Assembly: GCA_023251435.1 (NCBI GenBank)
Contig: JAHEYU010000060.1
Location: forward strand, 1-38,710
Length of the DNA stretch: 38,710 nucleotides
Origin: Bacteroidota bacterium
Lineage (GTDB): Bacteria > Bacteroidota > Bacteroidia > Bacteroidales > Prolixibacteraceae
Direction: 5' to 3'
A model generated the notes under the pieces. It saw nothing but the letters and a program-made list of their open reading frames with translations. It searched no databases and was not told where the DNA came from. Every line of letters begins with the position of its first letter. Position 1 is the stretch's first letter. A program made the translations under genes and the position numbers. Of the stretch, positions 20,866 through 38,710 are shown in pieces.

Positions 20866-21381
20866 TTAATTTTTATAACCAAGCTTAGCCAAAACCTGAT
20901 CGGAAAGATCAAATTTAGGATTGGTATAGATTAAGGTTATCCCGTTTGCTTTATCAAAGATAACAGCATAATTTCCTTCGTTCGCGATTTCCTGAATAGC
21001 GTTGAAAACATCATCCTGAATTGGTTTTACCAAACCCTGACGTTTCTTGAACAAATCGCCTTCGCGTCCAAAATATTTCCGCTGAAGATCTTTGTATTCT
21101 TTTTCTTTGGTAATAATTACATCTTCGCGTTTCCGTTTCATCTCGTCTGAAAGTAAAACACTTTCAGATTGAAAATCCTTGTACATCTGTTCAACTTCGG
21201 CATGCATCGATTCAAGCTCTTTCTGATACTGTGCCGACAATTGATCTAATTGCTCCTGCGATGCTTTGTATGAAGGAATATTTTCCAAAATATACTCTGA
21301 ATCGATAAAAGCAAATTTTTGTGCATAAGTTGTTGCTGCACCGAGCAACAAAATCACTGCGATAATAAACAGTTTCCTCAT
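20866..21381 (-). CDS. OmpH/Skp-family periplasmic chaperone, first copy
   Basis: This 171-residue protein has a signal peptide (TTYA-QKFA near residue 21), the motif FAFIDSEYILENIPSY, a charged coiled-coil (about 38-125, including EMKRKREDVIITKEKEYKDL) and a C-terminal region (YAVIFDKANGITLIYTN). It shares fold and domain order with the next gene, with limited identity outside the motif and C-terminal strands. It lies 63 bp downstream of bamA, its expected partner in outer-membrane protein assembly. Two ompH genes behind bamA are the usual arrangement in Bacteroidota. Confidence 0.92.
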   Translation of the reverse strand: MRKLFIIAVILLLGAATTYAQKFAFIDSEYILENIPSYKASQEQLDQLSAQYQKELESMHAEVEQMYKDFQSESVLLSDEMKRKREDVIITKEKEYKDLQRKYFGREGDLFKKRQGLVKPIQDDVFNAIQEIANEGNYAVIFDKANGITLIYTNPKFDLSDQVLAKLGYKN

Positions 21382-21444
21382 GATTGTATATTTTTAAATT
21401 GTTTCTGTTCCCTGTTTAGCAAATACCAGACCAAAACCTAAAGA

Positions 21445-24114
21445 CTAGAATTGCTGACCGATTACGAAATGGAACTGACTTCCGGCCGCATCACTCTGAT
21501 TCGGAACCTTATCAAATCCATAACCCCAGTCGATTCCCATTAAACCAAACATTGGCAGGAAGATACGAACACCCGCACCTGCAGAACGATGAAGTTTGAA
21601 TGGGTTATAGTCGCTGAAATTATTCCAGGCATTACCGGCTTCAAGAAATCCAAGAACATAAATAGTTGAAGAGGGTTTCAAAATTACCGGATACCTCATT
21701 TCTATTGAAAGTTTATTGTAGATATTCGAACCATAACCCGTGCTCAAACTGTAATCTTTGTATCCGCGAAGTGAAACAATATCGCTTCCGTATAAATTAT
21801 AACCAGACATACCCGATCCCCCAACACGGAATCCTTCGAACGGAGATTTGCGGAAGCTATCGTAATATCCCAAAAATCCATATTCGAATTTAGTATGTAA
21901 AACCAAATTTTTGTTTTTCGAAATTGGAGAATACCAGTCTCCTTTGAACATCCATTTATGATATTCGATCCATTTGTAGCGCTCCTGATTGGTAAGGGTC
22001 GGATCGCTGTAATTAACATTATTCATTAACGAATACGGAGGTGTTAACTGGAGCGAAAGACTGAAACTTGAACCACTGCGGGTGTATAACGGATTATCCA
22101 TTGAATTTCGTCCAAAAGCAGTTTTTAAACTGAAATTATTAAAGCCTCCGTTTCCGCTGCTTGTTCCATCGTTGAGGAAATAATAATAACCAGCCATATT
22201 CTGAAGCTCATAATGTTGGAACGAAAGTTCGTGGTACATGGTAAAAAAATCGTCGGGCCACGACAAGCGATACCCATAACCTAATGCAGCAGCAGAAGTT
22301 ATCTGTATCTGATCATCGGTACTTGATTGGTCGTCGTATGTGTAATTAGTTCCATAGTCGTATCCATAGTTTCCGTAACCGTATCCATAAGGAGAATAGC
22401 TGGATCCATAAGGAGAATATCCACCTCCATAGCCATAACCACCTCCGTAACCACCACCGTAACTGCTGTAGGGATCGTAGCCATAATTGCTGTAGGAATT
22501 GTTATTGGCCGAATAATTTACTGCAGAGTGCGACAACGAAAGAGTAAATGAATTTGGTTTCTTTCCGCCCAACCAAGGTTCGGTAAATGTAAGACTGTAC
22601 GATTTATAAAATGCTCCACTGGTTTGTGCCCTGATGCTCAATGTTTGTCCATCGCCCGTTGGCAAAGGTCTCCATGCTTCTTTGTTGAAAATATTACGCA
22701 CCGAGAAATTCGAAAATTTCAATCCAATTGTACCCACAAACATATTGGCGCCCCAGCCTCCCGAAAGTTCAATCTGATCGTTAGCTTTTTCAACCAGCTC
22801 ATAATTAATATCAACAGTTCCGTTTTCGGGATGCGGTCGAACATCCGGATTAATGGCTTCAGGATCGAAGTGACCTAGCTGTGATAATTCCCTGATTGTA
22901 CGGATAATATCTGATTTACTGAAAAGATCGCCTGGCAAAGTTCGAAGTTCGCGACGAGCTACGTGCTCATTTGTTTTTGTATTTCCTGAAATAATAATCT
23001 TTTCGATGGTTGCCTGACGGCCTTCCTGGATGCGCATTTCGAGGTCGATAGAATCGGCTTCGACACGTGTTTCCATGGGTGTGAGATTAAAGAACAAATA
23101 GCCGCGGTCGAGGTAATCGCTGCTAACAGCATCTTCGTCTTCTTTGGTGCGTTTATCCAGTAATTTCTGATCGAACACGTCGCCTTTTTTTATACCGAGT
23201 CTTGCTGACAGATATTCGCTCGGATAAATTGTATTTCCAACCCATTTTATGTCGCGGAAGAAATATTTACTTCCTTCGTCAATCCAGATATCAAGCCGAA
23301 TACGGTCATCTTCAAGTTTGGAAATAGAGTCCTTTACGATTGTTGCATCGCGATAACCTTTTTCATTGTACTTCTTTATAAGGTTGATTTTATCTTCAGA
23401 ATATTTTTCTGCAAGGAATTTCTTCGAACTAAAAAAGTTCATAATTTTCTTTGCCTTGGTTTTTTTCATCGAACGATCCAGAATCATCGGCTTCAGATTA
23501 TCATTCCCATGATAAATGATTTCACTGATCTTCACCTTTTCTTTTTTGTCAACTACAATGTCAAGAATTACACTATTTGTCTGGGTAGTATCATCTCGTT
23601 GAATTATATTGACATCAGTATTAAGAAAACCCTTTTCAGTAAAAATAGATTTAATTGCTTTTTGTGCCGAAGTCACCTGATTATCTGTAACCTGACTGCC
23701 TTTTAGCAGCAATACTTTCTTGGTGATATCGTCTTTTTCGGATTTTGAAACACCGGCGAAATTAACTTCGGCCAACCTTGGTCGTTCCTGTAAATTAATA
23801 CGAAGCCAAATGCTGTCGCCCAAAACTTTATCGGCTGAAATTTTCACATCCGAAAACAAACCGTGATTCCAAAGTTTTTTGATTGAATTGGTAATTTGGT
23901 CGCCCGGAACAGTAACAACATCACCTACATTTAGTCCGGAAATCTGAATAAGAACCTGTGTATCCAAATAGCGAATTCCCTGAACTTCTATACCACCAAT
24001 GGTATATTCTTTGGGACTTGAATAAAAAATGGAGAAATTGGTGCTCTCGGCTTCCTGAGAAAAGATTTTCGTACTGATTAACAGCAATATAAAAAACAGT
24101 TTAATTCTTTGCAT
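21445..24114 (-). CDS. bamA: Outer-membrane protein assembly factor BamA (Omp85)
   Basis: This 889-residue protein is the core of the BAM machine that folds barrels into the outer membrane. A signal peptide (ISTKIFSQEA) leads into five POTRA domains (about residues 37-420; for example VEGIRYL-type starts such as IGGIEVQGIRYLDTQVLIQI and IEKIIISGNTKTNEHVARRE). The 16-strand barrel with the R-G-Y lock region follows (SDIVSLRGYKDYSL; FRVGGSGMSGYNLYG) and the chain ends in the beta-signal HFVIGQQF. The barrel is interrupted at about residues 535-605 by a Gly/Tyr/Ser/Asp-rich segment with repeats of YGGGYG and SPYG, probably a long surface loop. It is preceded by uppS (16 bp) and followed by the two ompH genes. 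Confidence 0.97.
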   Translation of the reverse strand: MQRIKLFFILLLISTKIFSQEAESTNFSIFYSSPKEYTIGGIEVQGIRYLDTQVLIQISGLNVGDVVTVPGDQITNSIKKLWNHGLFSDVKISADKVLGDSIWLRINLQERPRLAEVNFAGVSKSEKDDITKKVLLLKGSQVTDNQVTSAQKAIKSIFTEKGFLNTDVNIIQRDDTTQTNSVILDIVVDKKEKVKISEIIYHGNDNLKPMILDRSMKKTKAKKIMNFFSSKKFLAEKYSEDKINLIKKYNEKGYRDATIVKDSISKLEDDRIRLDIWIDEGSKYFFRDIKWVGNTIYPSEYLSARLGIKKGDVFDQKLLDKRTKEDEDAVSSDYLDRGYLFFNLTPMETRVEADSIDLEMRIQEGRQATIEKIIISGNTKTNEHVARRELRTLPGDLFSKSDIIRTIRELSQLGHFDPEAINPDVRPHPENGTVDINYELVEKANDQIELSGGWGANMFVGTIGLKFSNFSVRNIFNKEAWRPLPTGDGQTLSIRAQTSGAFYKSYSLTFTEPWLGGKKPNSFTLSLSHSAVNYSANNNSYSNYGYDPYSSYGGGYGGGYGYGGGYSPYGSSYSPYGYGYGNYGYDYGTNYTYDDQSSTDDQIQITSAAALGYGYRLSWPDDFFTMYHELSFQHYELQNMAGYYYFLNDGTSSGNGGFNNFSLKTAFGRNSMDNPLYTRSGSSFSLSLQLTPPYSLMNNVNYSDPTLTNQERYKWIEYHKWMFKGDWYSPISKNKNLVLHTKFEYGFLGYYDSFRKSPFEGFRVGGSGMSGYNLYGSDIVSLRGYKDYSLSTGYGSNIYNKLSIEMRYPVILKPSSTIYVLGFLEAGNAWNNFSDYNPFKLHRSAGAGVRIFLPMFGLMGIDWGYGFDKVPNQSDAAGSQFHFVIGQQF

Positions 24115-24130
24115 TCTCTTCGTTATTGAA

Positions 24131-24871
24131 TTAGCTTACTAATTGTTGACTAGTTTTACCAAACCTTCTTTCTCTATTCTGAAAGTCGTAGATGGCCTCA
24201 AATAAATCTTCTTTCCTGAAATCGGGCCACAATTTGGGAGTAAAATATAATTCGGTGTAGGCAATTTGCCACAATAAAAAATTACTGATACGACATTCTC
24301 CGCTGGTACGAATAAGCAATTCCGGATCAGGCATTTCGGATGTGTTTAAATAACAATTCATCATCTCAAAATCTATTTCCGAAGGCTCCATTTTTCCCAA
24401 CTTCACTTGCTCGGCAATTCGCTTTACAGCCTCAACAATTTCCCATTTAGAACTGTAACTGAGTGCCAAAACCAGCGTAAGCCCTGTACATGAATGAAGT
24501 TTATCTATCGACCAGGTCAATTTTTCCTGAACATTTTGTGGAAGGCTTTTTACATCGCCGATCACTTTCAGACGGACATTGCTTTTTTTCAATTCGTCAG
24601 TTTCGTCCGAAATCGCCTGAACCAAAAGCCCCATCAATGCATCAACCTCTTCTTTTGGTCGCGACCAGTTTTCGGTTGAGAAGGCATAAAGTGTTAAAAA
24701 ATCGACGCCAATCTCGCCAGCTCCCTCAACAACCGAACGAACAGCCTCAACACCATGTTCATGGCCAAAGGTACGTTCGTTCCCGAATTGGGCGGCCCAC
24801 CGGCCGTTTCCATCCATAATGATGGCTACATGCCTTGGTATTCTTTCTTTTATCAGTTTATCTTTAAACAT
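24131..24871 (-). CDS. uppS: Isoprenyl transferase (undecaprenyl diphosphate synthase)
   Basis: This 246-residue cytoplasmic enzyme builds the C55 lipid carrier for peptidoglycan and surface glycans. The cis-prenyltransferase signatures are present: HVAIIMDGNGRWA at 14-26 (catalytic Asp20), FSTENWSRP near 65-73, and the C-terminal PDLLIRTSGE-type motif (PELLIRTSGECRISNFLLWQ) with FTPKLWPDF. The length is typical. It is 16 bp upstream of bamA and is transcribed with it. The short gap to DUF6089 (54 bp) contains a possible hairpin, but no -7 match is visible, so it may depend on an upstream promoter. Confidence 0.96.
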   Translation of the reverse strand: MFKDKLIKERIPRHVAIIMDGNGRWAAQFGNERTFGHEHGVEAVRSVVEGAGEIGVDFLTLYAFSTENWSRPKEEVDALMGLLVQAISDETDELKKSNVRLKVIGDVKSLPQNVQEKLTWSIDKLHSCTGLTLVLALSYSSKWEIVEAVKRIAEQVKLGKMEPSEIDFEMMNCYLNTSEMPDPELLIRTSGECRISNFLLWQIAYTELYFTPKLWPDFRKEDLFEAIYDFQNRERRFGKTSQQLVS

Positions 24872-32015: not shown

Positions 32016-33257
32016 TCATTTATTCCCGATAAACAATTCCTCTTTAATCTTTTGCAGCCTTTCAAGTGCGTAATCGGCGTTCTTGGCTTTTGTACCGGCT
32101 ATTTTCAGGTAGTTCGAATAATAATTTAGCGCCAGCGTTTTATTAAAATTGAATTCTTCGTAAGTGGTAGCAATTTCGAATAAAATCTCAACACGCTCAT
32201 TGTTGCATTCATACGCTTTTTGCAAAGCATCAATCGACTTCTCAAATTCGCGGTTGTTGCCATAAACCTGCCCCAGATGATGGTACATTTCAGTCATATA
32301 AACCGGTTGTGCGCAAGCAATTGCAGCGATCAGATATTCGGCGCTTCGGGTATAATCGGCCAGACTTTTATAGGCCAACCCCAGATAAAAATGTACAAAC
32401 TGATCGTTTGGAACCAGCGAGTAGCACTTTTCGAGCATTTGAATTGCCTTTTGCTCGTTCTTACAGAAGTACTGACAAATTCCATAATTTTTCAAAACAT
32501 CAAAAACCGAATCATTCGAGGCAAGATATTGTTCGTAAGGAAAAACTGCTTTTTCATACTCCTGAAGTTCAAACAAAGCGTCGGCCTGCCGGAGCAAAAT
32601 TGTTGGATTTTGAGGAAAGAAAGACAAAGCTTTTGCACCGGTGCGGGAAATATCTTCCGCGCTTTTCTTTCTTTTGAAAATTGCAATCAGGTTAAGGTGC
32701 GAGCCAAAATCACCCGGATTTTCGGCAAGAACCTGCTCATACAAGCGGATGGCCAGATCGGGTTTGCCATTCCTGAAGGCGGCAAAAGCAAATTGCTTGT
32801 TGAAGTAAACATTCGTTGAATCAACTTTATGGATGGCTTCAAAGGTTTGGTATGCCCTCTGGAAATCGTCGATACTGATGTAAGCCCTTCCCAGTTTTGC
32901 CTTCAGGCTTAAATCTTTCGGCGACAGATCAACGGCACGACGATAGCAATCTACTGTTTGATAAATATTTCCAAGACTTGAATAATTTTCGCCCAATTCG
33001 GAAAGATACAAACTGTTTTGAGGATCGTAAAACAAAGCCGTTTCGAGTGATTTACATGCTAAAAGCGGCATCGACTGCTCTTTGTATATCACAGCCTGTT
33101 TGAAATACAAATCGGCTTCAGGTTTTTCCTGAACTTGTTTTGAAATACGTTCTAAAGCCCGATCGTATTTTTTGTTCAGGATAAGCTCATCAATGGATTG
33201 GGAAAATAGCTGAAACGGCAGAATGAGCAGAACAAGGATGATTGTTTTCAGTTTCAT
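32016..33257 (-). CDS. Secreted TPR-repeat protein
   Basis: This 413-residue protein has a signal peptide (QLFS-QSID near residue 20) and about ten TPR-like helix pairs over the whole mature chain, such as LYLSELGENYSSLGNIYQTV, DLSLKAKLGRAYISIDDFQR and VHFYLGLAYKSLADYTRSA. It has no catalytic domain and no anchor, so it should be a periplasmic or surface scaffold. It is downstream of the blaI - M56/TonB - TonB genes on the same strand, 243 bp after the TonB gene with a repeat cluster between them. Whether it belongs to that operon is unclear, but TPR proteins often accompany M56/TonB sensors in Bacteroidota. The binding partner is unknown. Confidence 0.88.
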   Translation of the reverse strand: MKLKTIILVLLILPFQLFSQSIDELILNKKYDRALERISKQVQEKPEADLYFKQAVIYKEQSMPLLACKSLETALFYDPQNSLYLSELGENYSSLGNIYQTVDCYRRAVDLSPKDLSLKAKLGRAYISIDDFQRAYQTFEAIHKVDSTNVYFNKQFAFAAFRNGKPDLAIRLYEQVLAENPGDFGSHLNLIAIFKRKKSAEDISRTGAKALSFFPQNPTILLRQADALFELQEYEKAVFPYEQYLASNDSVFDVLKNYGICQYFCKNEQKAIQMLEKCYSLVPNDQFVHFYLGLAYKSLADYTRSAEYLIAAIACAQPVYMTEMYHHLGQVYGNNREFEKSIDALQKAYECNNERVEILFEIATTYEEFNFNKTLALNYYSNYLKIAGTKAKNADYALERLQKIKEELFIGNK

Positions 33258-33288
33258 GGCTGGTTGATTTTTGGTTATTGATTACGCC

Positions 33289-33301
33289 CCCGATAGTCGG
33301 G
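33289..33301. repeat. Small palindrome at the edge of the repeat cluster
   Basis: CCCGA-TAG-TCGGG is a perfect 5-bp palindrome. It resembles the CCCGATAG-type repeats common in intergenic DNA of this phylum, from memory. Confidence 0.35.
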
Positions 33302-33362
33302 ATTAACTTCCATTTTAAAATCGATTATCATTGTTTATTCGTCCAAAACGCTGTCGAAGCTT

Positions 33363-33490
33363 TTTCCGAAATGTCGGAAACCTTCGGACGCTGACAGGTT
33401 TTCCGGTTGCGGCAAGACCTGTCAGCGTCTGGAAGACCTGACAGCGTCAAAAACAGATCGGAATTTAAAATGCTCCACCTGTCAGGTCTG
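33363..33490. repeat. Cluster of REP-like inverted repeats
   Basis: A 7-bp hairpin (TTTCCGA/TCGGAAA, 33363-33380) is followed by GACGCTGACAGGT (33387-33399) and its perfect 13-bp complement ACCTGTCAGCGTC (33417-33429). Next is GACCTGACAGCGTC (33435-33448), one base different from the same unit, and then TGTCAGGTC (33480-33488), a perfect complement of its first nine bases. Four related copies of a GACCTGWCAGCGTC unit thus nest as alternating inverted repeats. The GC content is clearly higher than in the flanks. It fills most of the 243-bp gap between the TPR and TonB genes, which otherwise shows nothing. Confidence 0.7.
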
Positions 33491-33500
33491 AATAAAAATT

Positions 33501-33956
33501 TTACTTCAACGCAAAATTGATTGGGAGAACATATTGAATAGCAACGTCCTTACCCTTTTCTTTACCGGGTGTCCATTTTGGCATACTATTTACCACGCGA
33601 AGTGCCTCTGCATCAAGCAACGGATCAACAGCTCTCAAAATCTCAGCACCCGAGATTGCACCGTCTTTTCCAACGATGAACCTTACAAATACTTTCCCTT
33701 GAGTACCTTTCTTTTTAGCTTCTGTTGGATAACTAATTGACTTTAACATGAAATTGACTAATTCTGACTGTCCTCCCGGAAATTCAGGCATCTGGTCAAC
33801 TTTATCGTACACTTTCTCCTGAGTCTGTTCCGATTTTTGAGATTTCGGCTGAGCCCCTTGTCCAAAGGCAAATACCGGGAATAAACTAGCAGCCAATAAC
33901 ATTCCAACCATGATTTTTACATTGGCAATTCTTCTGAATTCTATTTGTGTTTTCAT
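33501..33956 (-). CDS. Stand-alone TonB C-terminal domain protein
   Basis: This 151-residue protein has an N-terminal anchor or signal segment (about residues 11-32, VKIMVGMLLAASLFPVFAF), a short linker (GQGAQPKSQKSEQTQEK) and a TonB C-terminal domain (about 55-151: MPEFPGGQSELVNFM, YPTEAKKKGTQGKVFVRFIV, LLDAEALRVVNSMPKWTPG). It lacks the long Pro-rich spacer of energy-transducing TonB, so it is too short to span the periplasm. Both the anchor and the TonB domain closely resemble residues 268-481 of the neighbouring M56 protein, so it looks like a partial duplication of that gene. It lies 169 bp downstream of the M56 gene. The role could be to compete with or assist the M56 sensor. Confidence 0.9.
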   Translation of the reverse strand: MKTQIEFRRIANVKIMVGMLLAASLFPVFAFGQGAQPKSQKSEQTQEKVYDKVDQMPEFPGGQSELVNFMLKSISYPTEAKKKGTQGKVFVRFIVGKDGAISGAEILRAVDPLLDAEALRVVNSMPKWTPGKEKGKDVAIQYVLPINFALK

Positions 33957-34125
33957 ACGTAAATAATTTGTTTTTTAATTGCCATATGGAACTCGCCAAC
34001 TAGTCATCCTCCTGTGTGAGAAGCAATTCTCATGGCTCGTTTCATTTTGACACTAATTTTAATTGTTAAATAAATTAAGTTATTGGAGAACGCTATGCTT
34101 TCACCAACAACATGATTTGACAGTT
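33957..34125. other. Gap between M56/TonB and TonB genes
   Basis: The gap holds a TGAGAA-GCAA-TTCTCA palindrome near the middle and, on the minus strand, an AGGAGG followed by a ten-codon mini-ORF. No -7 element or ACTA-N6-TAGT operator is visible. The TonB gene may be read through from the M56 gene. Confidence 0.35.
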
Positions 34126-35571
34126 TTATTGCAAAGTAAAATTGATAGGGACTGTATACGATACATTAACAGCCTCGCCTTTTTCTTTACCAGGCTTCCA
34201 TTTTGGCAGACTTTTCACAACCCGTAAAGCTTCTGCATCAAGCAAAGGATTTGCACTTCTTAGAATCTTTAGATTTGAAACTAAGCCATCTTTACCAACT
34301 ACAAAGTTTACAAATACTTTTCCCTGAATGCCATTTTTAATAGCTTCGGGAGGATATTTAACCGATTCTGCAATGAAATTACGCAATGCTATTTGGCCGC
34401 CGGGAAACTCTGGCATTTCTTCCACAATAAAGAATACCTGTTCCTGTGCTGAATTTTCCTGAACGTTTTCCGAAATTGAGGCATTTTCTGCTTCAACTTT
34501 GGCGTTTTGAATATAAATCTTCTCTCCTTTTACGCTATCAATTTGCGAAGCATAATTTCTTGATTTACCAATTATACTTTTCAGTATTTCAATTCCTGCA
34601 GAGTCTCCGGTCACCTGAAGAGTATGGCTCCCCTCTGTCACAAGCGTAATTGTCCTACTGTCTTTTGCGGTTTGCATTGTTACCGATTCCTTTTGTTCGC
34701 AGGCAAATACGGCGACTAAACTCGCGGCAATAACAAACCCAACAAGGATTTTAACGTTGGCTATTTTTCTTGATTTTATTTTTGAAATCATTTTGATACG
34801 GGATTTAATTAACGAATAATTGAAGTTGTTGGTCAAAACCAGTTGGTCGCCAACATACTGATTCAATAGGATTTGCTTGTACCACGAAGGTGCAGTTCCG
34901 TGAGAGATGACGGCCTGATCGGCCAGAAATTCGTGATTTTCGCGCAGCGCCCGCCGAAACATCCAAAAGAAAGGATTAAACCACTGAAATACAGCAACAA
35001 TCTCAAGAACAAGTACATCAAAAGTATGTCCTTGCTGAATGTGCTGTTTTTCGTGCTCGAGCATTTTTTCCCAACCTTTGGTGCTTTGCAGGTTTTTGCT
35101 TACGAAAATGTAATTCAGAAAAGAAAACGGACTTAACTCCCGATCCAGAAAAACCAACTTGATTTTTCCTTCAGGAACAACCTGGTTTTGCGCAATCAAC
35201 CGGATGATCTGGTAAATCCGAAGAAAAAATATACCGGCGAAAACTGCCACTCCCAATAAATACGCATAGCCTAATAAACTGAAGTTCAACACAAATTGCT
35301 CAGCACCATGCGACAATGCCGTTCCGTAAATAGTTACCGAACTTAGCAAATTTATGTATGGAGTTACAGTAACTTCCTGCAAAACGGTTGCCTGAGGCGT
35401 ATAAAACGGGATGTGCAACAGTGGCAAAAATGCCGAGAAACCGATAGAAACCAGCAAAAACCAGCGGTTTATACTGAAAAAAGTTTCTCTCCGTAAAAAC
35501 AGGAAATAAACAAGTGCAAACAAGCTCAGGCTTATTCCCGATTCGAGCAGGTAATTTACAAAACTAGTCAT
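34126..35571 (-). CDS. M56 (BlaR1-like) membrane peptidase fused to a TonB C-terminal domain
   Basis: This 481-residue protein has four membrane helices (about 9-27, 37-56, 94-122 and 272-291) and the M56 zinc-protease domain between helices 3 and 4. HEKQH at 173-177 is the HExxH motif and ENHEFLAD at 211-218 holds the likely third ligand. After helix 4 a periplasmic linker leads to a TonB C-terminal domain (about 389-481; MPEFPGGQIALRNFI, LLDAEALRVVKSLPKWKPG). In BlaR1/MecR1 the periplasmic part binds beta-lactams and the cytoplasmic protease inactivates BlaI; here a TonB domain replaces the beta-lactam sensor. It overlaps the blaI-type gene by 8 bp. The signal could come from TonB-dependent receptors or cell-envelope state, which is inference. 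Confidence 0.92.
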   Translation of the reverse strand: MTSFVNYLLESGISLSLFALVYFLFLRRETFFSINRWFLLVSIGFSAFLPLLHIPFYTPQATVLQEVTVTPYINLLSSVTIYGTALSHGAEQFVLNFSLLGYAYLLGVAVFAGIFFLRIYQIIRLIAQNQVVPEGKIKLVFLDRELSPFSFLNYIFVSKNLQSTKGWEKMLEHEKQHIQQGHTFDVLVLEIVAVFQWFNPFFWMFRRALRENHEFLADQAVISHGTAPSWYKQILLNQYVGDQLVLTNNFNYSLIKSRIKMISKIKSRKIANVKILVGFVIAASLVAVFACEQKESVTMQTAKDSRTITLVTEGSHTLQVTGDSAGIEILKSIIGKSRNYASQIDSVKGEKIYIQNAKVEAENASISENVQENSAQEQVFFIVEEMPEFPGGQIALRNFIAESVKYPPEAIKNGIQGKVFVNFVVGKDGLVSNLKILRSANPLLDAEALRVVKSLPKWKPGKEKGEAVNVSYTVPINFTLQ

Positions 35572-35953
35572 TGGGTGATGGATTTTCGGGTTCCAAATCT
35601 TTTCCTACTTCCTTGATTAATTCTTCAAGTTCTGAGAGGCTCATTTTGTCTTCTTTGGCAAAAAACGAAACCATTTCCTGAAACGAATTACTAAAATAAC
35701 CATTCAGAAAATTTTTGAAGTACGATTTTGTGTAATCCGGTTTGCTGATCAGCGGAAAATACTGATGTGTTTTTCCATACGCGTAATGGTCAACAAATCC
35801 TTTCTTTTCCAGAATCCGGATAATGGTAGAAACCGTGTTGTATGCAGGTTTTGGCTCGGGAAGCTTGTCGACAATTTCTTTTACAAAAGCTTTTTCGAGC
35901 GTCCACAATTCCTGCATAATCTGTTCTTCTGCTTTGGTTAATTCTTTCATCAC
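35564..35953 (-). CDS. BlaI/MecI-family transcriptional repressor
   Basis: This 129-residue protein is a winged-helix repressor: LTKAEEQIMQELWTLEKAFV (residues 4-23) starts the domain, the recognition helix lies in PKPAYNTVSTIIRILEKKGF (about 33-52), and HYAYGKTHQYFPLISK forms the wing. The C-terminal helix (MSLSELEELIKEV) is the dimer arm cut by BlaR1-type proteases. It is the first gene of the operon with the M56/TonB gene. The regulator should bind ACTA-N6-TAGT dyads, and arrays of such dyads stand directly upstream. It is not a proven beta-lactam regulator, since no beta-lactamase or PBP gene is nearby. Confidence 0.93.
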   Translation of the reverse strand: MMKELTKAEEQIMQELWTLEKAFVKEIVDKLPEPKPAYNTVSTIIRILEKKGFVDHYAYGKTHQYFPLISKPDYTKSYFKNFLNGYFSNSFQEMVSFFAKEDKMSLSELEELIKEVGKDLEPENPSPND

Positions 35954-35994
35954 GTAATCAGTTAAATTTAGTTTTCAAATCTCAAAAATCTTGC

Positions 35995-36033
35995 CAAAAC
36001 TAAGCAATTAGTTCGTCAACTAATAATCTAGTT
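35995..36033 (-). promoter_or_regulatory. BlaI operator array 1 and blaI promoter
   Basis: Four half-sites stand at exact 10-bp steps: AACTAA (35998), TTAGTT (36008), AACTAA (36018), CTAGTT (36028). They form two tandem dyads AACTAA-N4-nTAGTT, that is ACTA-N6-TAGT, the spacing I recall for MecI/BlaI operators. On the minus strand, TAGTTTTG (35995-36002) is an exact -7 element merged with the outer half-site and pointing to blaI, so bound repressor would block the promoter. Confidence 0.7.
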
Positions 36034-36139
36034 ATAAAAGACAAAAAAAATAGAACACATTCGTCAGCCAGATTAGAAAATTAGTTTTTTACGCCAATGA
36101 TCCGTTTCATAGCTGATTGGATATCCTGCACAAACATAT

Positions 36140-36178
36140 AACTAACTTTTTAGTTATACAACTAATTCGATAGTTTTG
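36140..36178 (+). promoter_or_regulatory. BlaI operator array 2 and probable kinase promoter
   Basis: AACTAA (36140), TTAGTT (36150), AACTAA (36160) and ATAGTT (36170) repeat the architecture of array 1, with the same N4 spacers in length but different bases. The central TATAACTAA-N4-TTAGTTATA has 9-bp perfect arms (36137-36158). On the plus strand, TAGTTTTG (36171-36178) is an exact -7 element merged with the outer half-site and pointing to the histidine kinase, 203 bp upstream of its ATG. Confidence 0.65.
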
Positions 36179-36310
36179 TTTGAAAATAATGGGAAATGCC
36201 CTGTCTCTACCGAAACGGGTTGAATATTAAAATCTATACAATGCGACAGGTCTTTATTCTAACGGGAATTTTGTCGTACATCCGAATCCTCCAATATCTG
36301 TGAATTTTAC

Positions 36311-36347
36311 AACTTTTTACCATAGTTATACAACACTTATGGTTTTG
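36311..36347 (+). promoter_or_regulatory. Degenerate third copy of the operator/promoter
   Basis: AACTTTTTA (36311-36319) and TAGTTATACAAC (36323-36334) are also found in array 2, where they overlap and are not separated by extra bases. The copy ends in TATGGTTTTG, an imperfect -7 element 35 bp before the kinase ATG. Half-sites ATAGTT-ATAC-AACACT remain. The 428-bp gap holds no other gene; a 20-codon ORF at 36241 has no support. Confidence 0.4.
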
Positions 36348-36381
36348 CACTTGCATAACTTGCCGCGATCAGAATTCATTA

Positions 36382-38472
36382 ATGGTGAGTGATGTATATG
36401 CTCGTAAAATGCAATTACCAATGGAAAAACACAACAAATCAGATAAGGTAGCTCTTCGGCAAAAGGCAGAAGAATTGCAAAAAGTGGATACATCAAAATC
36501 AGTTTCAGTAATTATGGAAGCGCAGATGCTGAAAATGATTCACGAGCTTGAAGCAAACCAGATGGAGTTGAAAATAGAGAATGAAGAGCTCAGAACCCAG
36601 CTCATCGACCGACAGGGGGCCGAAGAATCGCTTATAGCATCAGAAACCCGATACCGCAGACTTTTTGAATCGGCCAAAGACGGGATTCTGATTCTCGATG
36701 CCGAAACCGGGATGATTACTGATGTGAACCCATTTTTAATTGAGATGCTGGGCTATTCAAAAGATCAGTTTCGTAATAAAGCAATATGGGAAATCGGGTT
36801 CCTTAAAGATATAGTTGCCAATCTGGATAAATTTTTGGAATTACAACAGAAAGAATATGTGCGTTATGACGACCTTCCGCTCGAAACGGCTGCCGGACGA
36901 AAAATCAGTGTGGAGTTCGTCAGCAATAGCTATTTTGAAAACAATAAGAAGGTAATTCAGTGCAACATACGGGAGACAACCATTCGAAAACAGGCAGAGC
37001 TGGCGTTGCAAAAGAGTGAATCTCATCTTCGCACACTTGTACAAACAATACCCGACTTAATTTGGTTAAAAGACACCAATGGGGTGTACCTCTCGTGCAA
37101 TCCGATGTTCGAGCGGTTTTTTGGAGCCAATGAAGCTGACATTATTGGTAAAACCGATTATGACTTTGTTGACCGGGAATTGGCAGACTTTTTCCGCAGA
37201 AACGACCGAAAAGCCATAGAAGAAGGGAAACCTACCAGTAACGAAGAATGGGTTACCTTTGCTGACAATGGATACCGTGCCTTTCTGGATACGATTAAAA
37301 CCCCGATATACGATTCAGACGGAACATTGCATGGTATTCTGGGCATTGGGCGGGACATTACCGAACGGAAGAAAGCAGAAGATGCACTGTTTGAAAGCGA
37401 AATAAAATACCGATCATTTTTTGAAAACAGCATGGACGCCATACTTTTAACAAGTCCTGATGGGAAAATACTATCAGCCAACCAGGCAGCATGCAATATG
37501 TTTGGATATACGGAAGATGAACTTATAAAACTGGGCCGATCAGCCATTGCTGATCTGTCAGATTCCCGTTTACCTGTTTTGCTGGACGAACGGAAATTAA
37601 AAGGAAAAGCACGGGGTGAAGTAACATTTCTACGTAAAGACAGAACAAGATTACCTGCAGAAATTTCATCAGCTATTTTCAAAAATCATGAGGGTTTTGA
37701 ACTTTCCAGCATGATCATACGCGACATTACTGATCATATAATTGCTAAAAAAAAACTCATTAGTGCCAAAGAAAAAGCACAGGAAAGCGACCGTTTAAAA
37801 TCTGCTTTTCTATCCAATATGTCGCACGAAATCCGTACACCGTTAAACAGCATCATCGGATTTTCTGAATTGCTGGGCGATCCGGACTTTGAGGAGGATC
37901 AGAAAACTGAATTTACTCAGCATATCATTGCCAATGGAAATAACCTTCTAAAAATTATCAGCGATATAATGGATATATCAAAGATAGAATCAGGTGAAAT
38001 TACCATCCGAAAAAAACATATCAATGCTCATGAATATGTGTTGGGCATTTATGAACAATTTTCTCTTCAGGCCGGAACGCACAAGCCCGAACTAATACTA
38101 AACCTTCCAGACAACGATAAAGAAATAGAAATTTTTGCCGATCCAGACAGGCTCAGACAAATATTTAATAATCTGATTAGCAATGCCTTAAAATTCACCT
38201 CAAATGGCAATATCGAAATTGGATACCGCCCCAAAAGCAAAATGATGGAGTTTTTCGTTAAAGATACCGGAATCGGGATTCCGGCTTCTTATCACCATAA
38301 AATATTTGACCGTTTTAGGCAGGTTGAAGATTCAAAAACACGCAAATACGGCGGAAATGGACTTGGACTGGCCATTACAAAAAATCTGGTTAAGTTAATG
38401 GGCGGAAAAATATGGGTCGAAAGCGAAGTAGATAAAGGTAGTGCGTTTTATTTTACTATGCCCATGAATTAA
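36382..38472 (+). CDS. Cytoplasmic multi-PAS histidine kinase
   Basis: This 696-residue sensor kinase has no membrane helix. A coiled-coil (about residues 45-75, HELEANQMELKIENEELRTQ) leads to three PAS domains: about 83-205 (LFESAKDGILILDAETG), 213-335 (IPDLIWLKDTNGVYLSCNP, with PAC end GIGRDITERKKAE) and 338-455 (FFENSMDAILLTSPDG). HisKA follows with the phosphorylated His482 in SNMSHEIRTPLNSI. HATPase_c has the N box FNNLISNALKFT, G1 VKDTGIGIP and G2 YGGNGLGLAITKNL. There is no receiver domain, and no response regulator in the window. The ATG at 36382 is the first in frame; MEKHNKSD at residue 14 is an alternative. Its promoter region carries the BlaI-type operators, so it may be part of the M56/TonB regulon. 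Confidence 0.93.
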   Translation: MVSDVYARKMQLPMEKHNKSDKVALRQKAEELQKVDTSKSVSVIMEAQMLKMIHELEANQMELKIENEELRTQLIDRQGAEESLIASETRYRRLFESAKDGILILDAETGMITDVNPFLIEMLGYSKDQFRNKAIWEIGFLKDIVANLDKFLELQQKEYVRYDDLPLETAAGRKISVEFVSNSYFENNKKVIQCNIRETTIRKQAELALQKSESHLRTLVQTIPDLIWLKDTNGVYLSCNPMFERFFGANEADIIGKTDYDFVDRELADFFRRNDRKAIEEGKPTSNEEWVTFADNGYRAFLDTIKTPIYDSDGTLHGILGIGRDITERKKAEDALFESEIKYRSFFENSMDAILLTSPDGKILSANQAACNMFGYTEDELIKLGRSAIADLSDSRLPVLLDERKLKGKARGEVTFLRKDRTRLPAEISSAIFKNHEGFELSSMIIRDITDHIIAKKKLISAKEKAQESDRLKSAFLSNMSHEIRTPLNSIIGFSELLGDPDFEEDQKTEFTQHIIANGNNLLKIISDIMDISKIESGEITIRKKHINAHEYVLGIYEQFSLQAGTHKPELILNLPDNDKEIEIFADPDRLRQIFNNLISNALKFTSNGNIEIGYRPKSKMMEFFVKDTGIGIPASYHHKIFDRFRQVEDSKTRKYGGNGLGLAITKNLVKLMGGKIWVESEVDKGSAFYFTMPMN

Positions 38473-38510
38473 TAACGGAATGGCATTCGACTAATTTAGA
38501 ATAAAAAAAA

Positions 38511-38540
38511 AAGGCCGCCTGACTTTACATCGGCGACCTT
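38511..38540 (-). terminator. Terminator hairpin, minus-strand orientation
   Basis: AAGGCCGCC (38511-38519) pairs with GGCGACCTT (38532-38540); the one mismatch is a G-U pair in minus-strand RNA. A 10-base T-run follows on that strand. It should end a minus-strand gene entering from the right; it may also stop the kinase transcript. Confidence 0.75.
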
Positions 38541-38600
38541 CTTTTGATTTAAATGGTTGAGGTGGTTTACGAAATTTATATGGTACAGACCTGTTTTCCG

Positions 38601-38710
38601 CTATGGGACACCCTGAAAATTTTTTGAGATAATTTGACAAAGTTCAGCTTGCATATCGTCCATTTTCAGGAGTTGCGACTTGGTTTGTTTTGATTCGGGC
38701 AGCATATATG
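38601..38710 (-). CDS. C-terminal end of an unidentified minus-strand protein (truncated)
   Basis: A minus-strand frame is open from the window edge to a TAG at 38601-38603 and encodes about 35 residues (with KSQLLKMDDMQAELCQ, ending NFQGVP). The matching minus-strand terminator lies 60 bp further on, which supports real transcription. The stretch is too short to identify, and an open frame of this length can occur by chance. Confidence 0.4.
   Translation of the reverse strand, partial: YMLPESKQTKSQLLKMDDMQAELCQIISKNFQGVP

Follow-up and report, generated by a model that had tools for sequence, protein, structure and literature searches.

Twin arrays of predicted BlaI operators upstream of a blaI–M56-TonB gene pair in a Bacteroidota genome

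Genes and Features of the Locus

The window, i.e., the whole stretch of 38,710 nucleotides of Bacteroidota contig JAHEYU010000060.1 that was analyzed, contains a BlaI-family repressor gene, a gene for an M56 peptidase that overlaps it and, upstream of both, two arrays of inverted repeats. The features are as follows.

33501..33956, minus strand: gene for a TonB_C protein (Pfam), probably the last gene of the predicted operon
34126..35571, minus strand: gene for an M56 (BlaR1-type) peptidase that carries HEKQH and has a TonB_C domain at its C terminus; the gene shares 8 bp with blaI
35564..35950, minus strand: blaI-family repressor gene (PF03965), ATG at 35950, with GTG at 35953 as a second possible start
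35983..35995, minus strand: GGCAAGATTTTTG, a GGYA-N6-TTG element after the proximal array with sigma54-like spacing, recognized by conservation
35998..36033, no strand: proximal array, made of two dyads at 20-bp spacing, recognized by sequence and kept in relatives
36043..36126, minus strand: predicted leader of ~84 nt, with a putative start at GGATATCC (36119-36126) and its end at an 8-T run (36043-36050)
36131..36138, minus strand: -7 box TATGTTTG of the predicted distal promoter, facing blaI and separated from the array by 1 nt
36140..36175, no strand: distal array, made of two AACTAA-N4-TTAGTT-type dyads at 20-bp spacing, recognized by sequence and kept in relatives
36159..36161, minus strand: -33-like TTG in the spacer that separates the distal dyads, 20 nt ahead of the -7 box

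The repressor belongs to the BlaI family (112.4 bits against PF03965, curated cut-off 22.6) and matches MecI chains by sequence (E 5e-13); where the staphylococcal cleavage site has Asn, the aligned residue of this BlaI is Phe. Its M56 partner scores 39.1 bits against PF05569 and carries its HExxH motif as HEKQH at residue 173. Pfam shows only M56 and TonB_C in this protein, and no penicillin-binding sensor domain was found by it. On the plus strand, a histidine kinase gene (PAS, HisKA, HATPase) begins 206 bp past the distal array. Beyond the kinase, positions 38500-38545 hold an A run and an inverted repeat GGCCGCC...GGCGACC, then T, and similar GGTCGCC...GGCGACC stretches lie upstream of blaI in several relatives. 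Elsewhere in the window, genes for an OmpH-like protein, a POTRA-repeat surface antigen and undecaprenyl diphosphate synthase follow in series (20866-24871).

Sequence and Uniqueness of the Arrays

Scanning the window with the four-half-site pattern described in a first-pass annotation of this DNA returned the proximal array, AACTAAGCAATTAGTTCGTCAACTAATAATCTAGTT, and the distal array, AACTAACTTTTTAGTTATACAACTAATTCGATAGTT, each with 0 mismatches, and bore out the design, positions and spacing reported there. Half-sites follow one another at steps of 10 bp and dyads at 20 bp, and the array starts are 142 bp apart. The pattern had zero matches across 100 shuffles of the window, and these two copies are the sole occurrences of the 36-bp array in the 5.73-Mb genome at up to three mismatches; four of the five places in the genome with the palindrome AACTA-N6-TAGTT lie within them. 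Chance is excluded as the origin of the two arrays. Copying of one array from the other was also considered and rejected, because the spacer sequences are different and the half-site steps persist from genus to genus, which makes selection the better reading. The start-to-start distance ranges from 136 to 146 bp across 12 loci of the same genus (set A, defined below), so a fixed helical phase between the arrays was likewise discarded, and phase lends no support to looping between them.

Conservation and Association With BlaI

Set A consists of the best 80 of 269 confirmed loci found with the BlaI protein; these loci are interrelated and many come from metagenome bins. When a dyad was accepted at no more than one mismatch in 10 positions and within 420 bp upstream of blaI, at least one was present in 80/80 of these best-ranked loci, with 204 dyads in 32,845 bp of upstream sequence versus 58 elsewhere in these loci (558,318 bp). 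Successive dyads were spaced by exactly 20 bp in 85 of 124 cases, which supports the suggestion that the half-sites and their spacing are under selection. Conservation of half-site spacing at homologous loci, proposed at the outset as a check, was thereby established. Variant loci have one dyad, three dyads, a 25-bp spacing (Marinilabilia) or a 53-bp spacing (Carboxylicivirga). The 20-bp spacing is thus preferred rather than universal, and the lone dyads show the unit to be AACTAA-N4-TTAGTT.

A blind scan of 395 Bacteroidota genomes used the array pattern alone, with no protein, at up to two mismatches. It matched 25 genomes including the source of the window (24 others), and the reversed pattern matched 2. 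One locus per other genome was inspected (24 of 29 places), and a BlaI ORF, recognized with a profile built for this analysis, was present in 21 of the 24, while no BlaI lay near the array in L093, L098 and L103. A further group, set C (L115 and up), was retrieved with a pattern containing the -7 box, and its promoter count is left out here; BlaI fell within the fetched stretch in 55 of the 90 loci L115-L204. A pattern tally of 117/140, at one mismatch allowed, includes chance matches, as shown by the many genomes in which the reversed pattern scores too. The array sequences, their conservation and their association with BlaI are direct observations. Together, the dyads at all 80 BlaI loci and the BlaI ORFs at 21 of 24 blind-scan loci support the original proposal that the arrays are, very probably and judging from sequence, operators of the adjacent BlaI-family repressor.

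Several observations extend this picture. In L093 the array (1501-1536) is flanked by genes for an ABC-transporter ATPase and a MacB/FtsX-type permease. Eight records titled Aminicenantes or Acidobacteria (L049, L060, L061, L071, L072, L076, L078 and L079) have the same dyads before a BlaI that is 57-67% identical to the window protein; wide spread, transfer and misbinning are alternative explanations. Draconibacterium-like genomes have a lone extra dyad 61-64 bp, or about six helical turns, upstream of a two-dyad array (L145-L175 and others; dyads at 397, 459 and 479 in L146).

The source genome also encodes BlaI paralogues. One of these (L005, C57) has GACTA-N6-TAGTC dyads at 1396 and 1437, 41 bp apart, with TACATTTG 1 nt after the second, and would appear to differ in operator specificity while placing its promoter in the same way. 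No such dyad pair was found at the second (L004).

Promoter Direction

Because the arrays are nearly palindromic, direction was read from their flanks, using 94 non-redundant arrays from 67 loci of the protein-found set and 21 blind-scan arrays. A TAnnTTTG box stands exactly 1 nt past the last half-site on the side toward BlaI in 44/94 protein-found arrays and on the far side in 0/94, the blind-scan figures being 10/21 and 0/21; the exact box is missing at this usual place in 50/94. Between the dyads, TTG or TTTG reads toward BlaI in 66 and away in 11 of the 94 arrays, and toward BlaI in 16 and away in 1 of the 21. At the twin-array loci of the same genus in set A, the exact box accompanies the distal array in 12/12 and the proximal array in 0/12. 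The direction of the -7 box is observed directly and, since it occurs only on the BlaI side, the distal promoter most likely fires toward blaI.

The Bacteroides sigma-ABfr consensus consists of TTTG at -33 and TAnnTTTG at -7 (PMC7366714). The distal array of the window resembles it in its exact -7 box and in the TTG or TTTG of the dyad spacer, and differs from it in that operator half-sites alternate with the promoter elements (PMC7366714). The -33 element is TTTG-N19 in many relatives, and the window has TTG only, 20 nt ahead of the -7 box.

The first-pass annotation had instead fused a TAnnTTTG element to the outer half-site of each array, one facing each way. Both TAGTTTTG strings are present (36171-36178 on the plus strand and 36002-35995 on the minus strand), but the placement is not conserved, being found toward BlaI in 5 and away from it in 2 of 150 non-redundant arrays upstream of BlaI. 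The idea of promoters facing each way, and with it an outward promoter toward the kinase, was abandoned on the far-side counts of 0/94 and 0/21. Control of the kinase by the array fared no better: the first mechanically called ORF of at least 70 aa upstream runs in the same direction as blaI in 15/15 of the closest loci (L011-L025), and the sole one identified by Pfam encodes a GH97 glycosidase (L011).

The Slot Between the Arrays

The region between the arrays was compared in 40 non-redundant twin-array units, 14 from the same genus and 26 from others. A T-run of at least six occurs within 35 nt ahead of the proximal array in 33/40 units and an A-run in 1/40, and the corresponding figures before the distal array are 7/40 and 8/40. 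The 26 units from other genera gave 19/26 and 1/26 before the proximal array, and 7/26 and 2/26 before the distal array. Such a bias toward a single strand is suggestive of RNA.

Within the genus, the predicted leader starts with GGATATCC in 13/14 units. In several genera this palindrome, in a few cases with one base changed, also occurs a few nucleotides past the distal -7 box (window 36119-36126; L011-L025, L156, L161, L162, L165 and L185). The TCAACT region pairs with the AGTTGA region in 13/14 minimum-energy folds from the genus, as read by eye, and fold z-scores of six of the 14 leaders ranged from -0.97 to -4.10; RNAalifold picked another hairpin, in which one of eight pairs changed on both sides. 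The leader of this genus may fold, with modest support. Hairpin energies across the twin-array units lie between 0 and -8.2 kcal/mol. A scan of the window leader found no intrinsic terminator hairpin before the U-tract, and no Rfam RNA reached the gathering threshold in 33000-38710.

No conserved ORF was seen in the 14 leaders of the genus, including that of the window. Among the 26 units from other genera, an ATG-initiated ORF ends in Pro-stop in 16, in THDLRV or a close variant in 5 and in DHW in 1, and none of these was present in 4. The leader peptide TnaC likewise ends in Pro-stop. The short ORFs with the Pro-stop or THDLRV-like end span 10-17 codons, and the stop codon falls within a few nucleotides of the T-run in most of the 22 ORF-bearing units. 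Codon comparison of related sequences against column shuffles revealed a synonymous excess in two of the four ORF groups tested, all from outside the genus. Coding was supported for the THDLRV group (six sequences, one partial; 0/2000 shuffles reached the score) and for the RPDP group (four sequences; 3/2000 shuffles), and not for the GIPP group (1236/2000 shuffles) or the QHPP group (0 synonymous of four codon differences).

Larger genes occupy this position in some relatives. The six ORFs examined in L030, L034, L036 and L039, located between the array and blaI, all encode TonB_C proteins, the distal arrays of L030 and L036 being assigned to these loci by contig-length match, and the gene after the array in L146 also encodes a TonB_C protein. 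By eye, L112 has a further open frame, another kind of payload, between its array (1501-1536) and BlaI. The inter-array slot thus seems to carry a payload, i.e., a short leader in the window and TonB genes or micro-ORFs in relatives.

The Proximal Start Region

Past the proximal array, a GGYA-N6-TTG element is conserved in 10/12 twin-array loci of the same genus in set A. In the larger collection of 150 arrays, it was found at offset +3, +2 or -3 in 27/150 toward BlaI and in none away, with a background rate of 2.1e-4 per position. Its spacing is that of the sigma54 -24/-12 consensus (PMC12316311). Compared with GG at -24 and GC at -12, separated by 10 nt, the GG and the TTG at this spacing are conserved; in place of the -12 C the window has A, and most relatives also have a base other than C. 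The rpoN gene is present in 21/23 genomes of the genus, including the source of the window. Searches with sigma54 patterns gave no excess, either in this genome (three matches versus four for the reversed control) or across 21 genomes (two matches versus nine for controls). The element is perhaps of sigma54 type.

An explanation with a single start would place the promoter at the distal array only and make the proximal array a roadblock in the transcribed leader, so that one transcript is checked twice. This would suit the 12 proximal arrays of the genus, none of which has TAnnTTTG at the usual place, as well as loci L019, L023 and L024, in which leader and second array are missing and one distal-type array with its promoter stands directly before blaI. 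It is nevertheless rather unlikely in view of the GGYA-N6-TTG element conserved past 10 of those 12 proximal arrays and the canonical -7 box found at some other proximal arrays (L048).

A Model for Control of the blaI Operon

The favored reading, to which we assign a probability of roughly 0.7, is that the two arrays repress BlaI's own operon at two successive start regions. Each AACTAA-N4-TTAGTT dyad would be the site of one BlaI dimer, with two dimers per array. The distal array would overlay a standard Bacteroidota promoter, with TTG between the dyads and the -7 box 1 nt past the last half-site, and because of this overlap bound BlaI would block RNA polymerase. The distal promoter would read toward blaI through a short leader whose U-tract ends just before the proximal array, and the latter would sit on a second start region directly ahead of blaI, possibly sigma54-type. 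BlaI would in this way repress its operon (blaI, M56-TonB, TonB_C) at two successive points, and cleavage of BlaI by the M56 protein upon some signal would lift both blocks. We infer binding, transcription starts and cleavage from the families involved, and the role given to leader and U-tract is conjectural too. Counting against this model are the 50/94 arrays without the exact -7 box at its usual place, the three blind-scan loci that lack a nearby BlaI, the L004 paralogue without a dyad pair, the Phe at the aligned cleavage-site position and, for the second start region, the mostly absent -12 C and the lack of an excess of sigma54 patterns.

A more elaborate extension remains speculative and is rather doubtful as a whole. 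In it, the slot would be a repressor-gated leader cassette, in which a short RNA from the distal promoter is controlled by BlaI and ends at the U-tract ahead of the second array, in several genera a selected micropeptide with Pro-stop or THDLR[VI]-stop ends against the U-tract, and ribosome stalling decides readthrough into the blaI/TonB-linked operon, the slot serving as a modular site for structured RNA, micropeptide or tonB genes.

It is very improbable that another regulator binds the arrays and BlaI is a mere neighbor. The BlaI-array link does come from sequence, and the array of L093 lies beside ABC-transporter genes without BlaI; however, BlaI adjoins the array in 21/24 blind-scan loci, and BlaI proteins of Clostridium thermocellum bind the CTA-core half-sites GTCTAT and GACTAT in two inverted-repeat pairs (PMC8457756). 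The divergent switch first proposed, in which the histidine kinase would be under the distal array and blaI under the proximal one, has in its favor the TAGTTTTG at 36171-36178 that faces the kinase and is scarcely credible against 0/94 and 0/21 far-side boxes, 2/150 boxes at the outward position and upstream neighbors that vary and, in 15/15 closest loci, read away from such a promoter.

Relation to Known Systems

The window arrays are a variant, with another half-site, of a known four-protomer BlaI array. In C. thermocellum, sites for four BlaI protomers, arranged as two pairs of inverted repeats, were reported ahead of the BlaI operon on the strength of DAP-seq and motif scanning (PMC8457756). 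BlaI_0696 and BlaI_1845 each have such an arrangement of four half-sites with a CTA core before their own operon, and autoregulation was inferred for both in that paper (PMC8457756). In the window, too, pairs of inverted repeats, two per array, precede the predicted operon of the repressor itself. The C. thermocellum half-sites are GTCTAT/GACTAT, with the BlaI_0696 repeats five nucleotides apart, and the consulted part of the description contains neither twin arrays nor an embedded TAnnTTTG promoter or payload (PMC8457756). The initial impression that the layout was undescribed therefore holds for the half-site and not for the four-protomer array (PMC8457756).

Staphylococcal MecI/BlaI and CopY operators, characterized by TACANNTGTA, are dyads of same-family repressors, often two per control region (PMC7253601). 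The window dyads, AACTAA-N4-TTAGTT or close to it, hold no TACANNTGTA, and their conserved bases (ACTA-N6-TAGT) lie farther from the dyad center than in MecI/BlaI/CopY operators (PMC7253601). Leader-peptide attenuators, of which flavobacterial cases have been mentioned (PMC9723704), resemble the relatives with a short Pro-stop ORF beside a U-tract ahead of the operon; they differ in that the relatives' ORF lies between two repressor arrays and the window leader has no conserved ORF. A Porphyromonas BlaI and M56 gene are named, in the part of the source considered here, in tables only (PMC10470040). In a search that had most subscription papers outside its reach, no literature was found on an AACTAA-N4-TTAGTT operator, on Bacteroidota BlaI/M56-TonB control or on ORFs between BlaI operators.

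Implications

The inter-array micropeptides offer a testable case of a leader ORF within a BlaI control region and, if the cassette reading were true, a single control point would respond both to BlaI proteolysis and to the state of translation. More broadly, AACTAA-N4-TTAGTT pairs at 20 bp on TAnnTTTG would provide a readable operator code for Bacteroidota BlaI paired with M56-TonB, one that may be used for regulon finding in draft genomes and that would tie the BlaI/M56-TonB pair, in Draconibacterium- and Maribellus-like relatives, to genes for TonB energy transducers.
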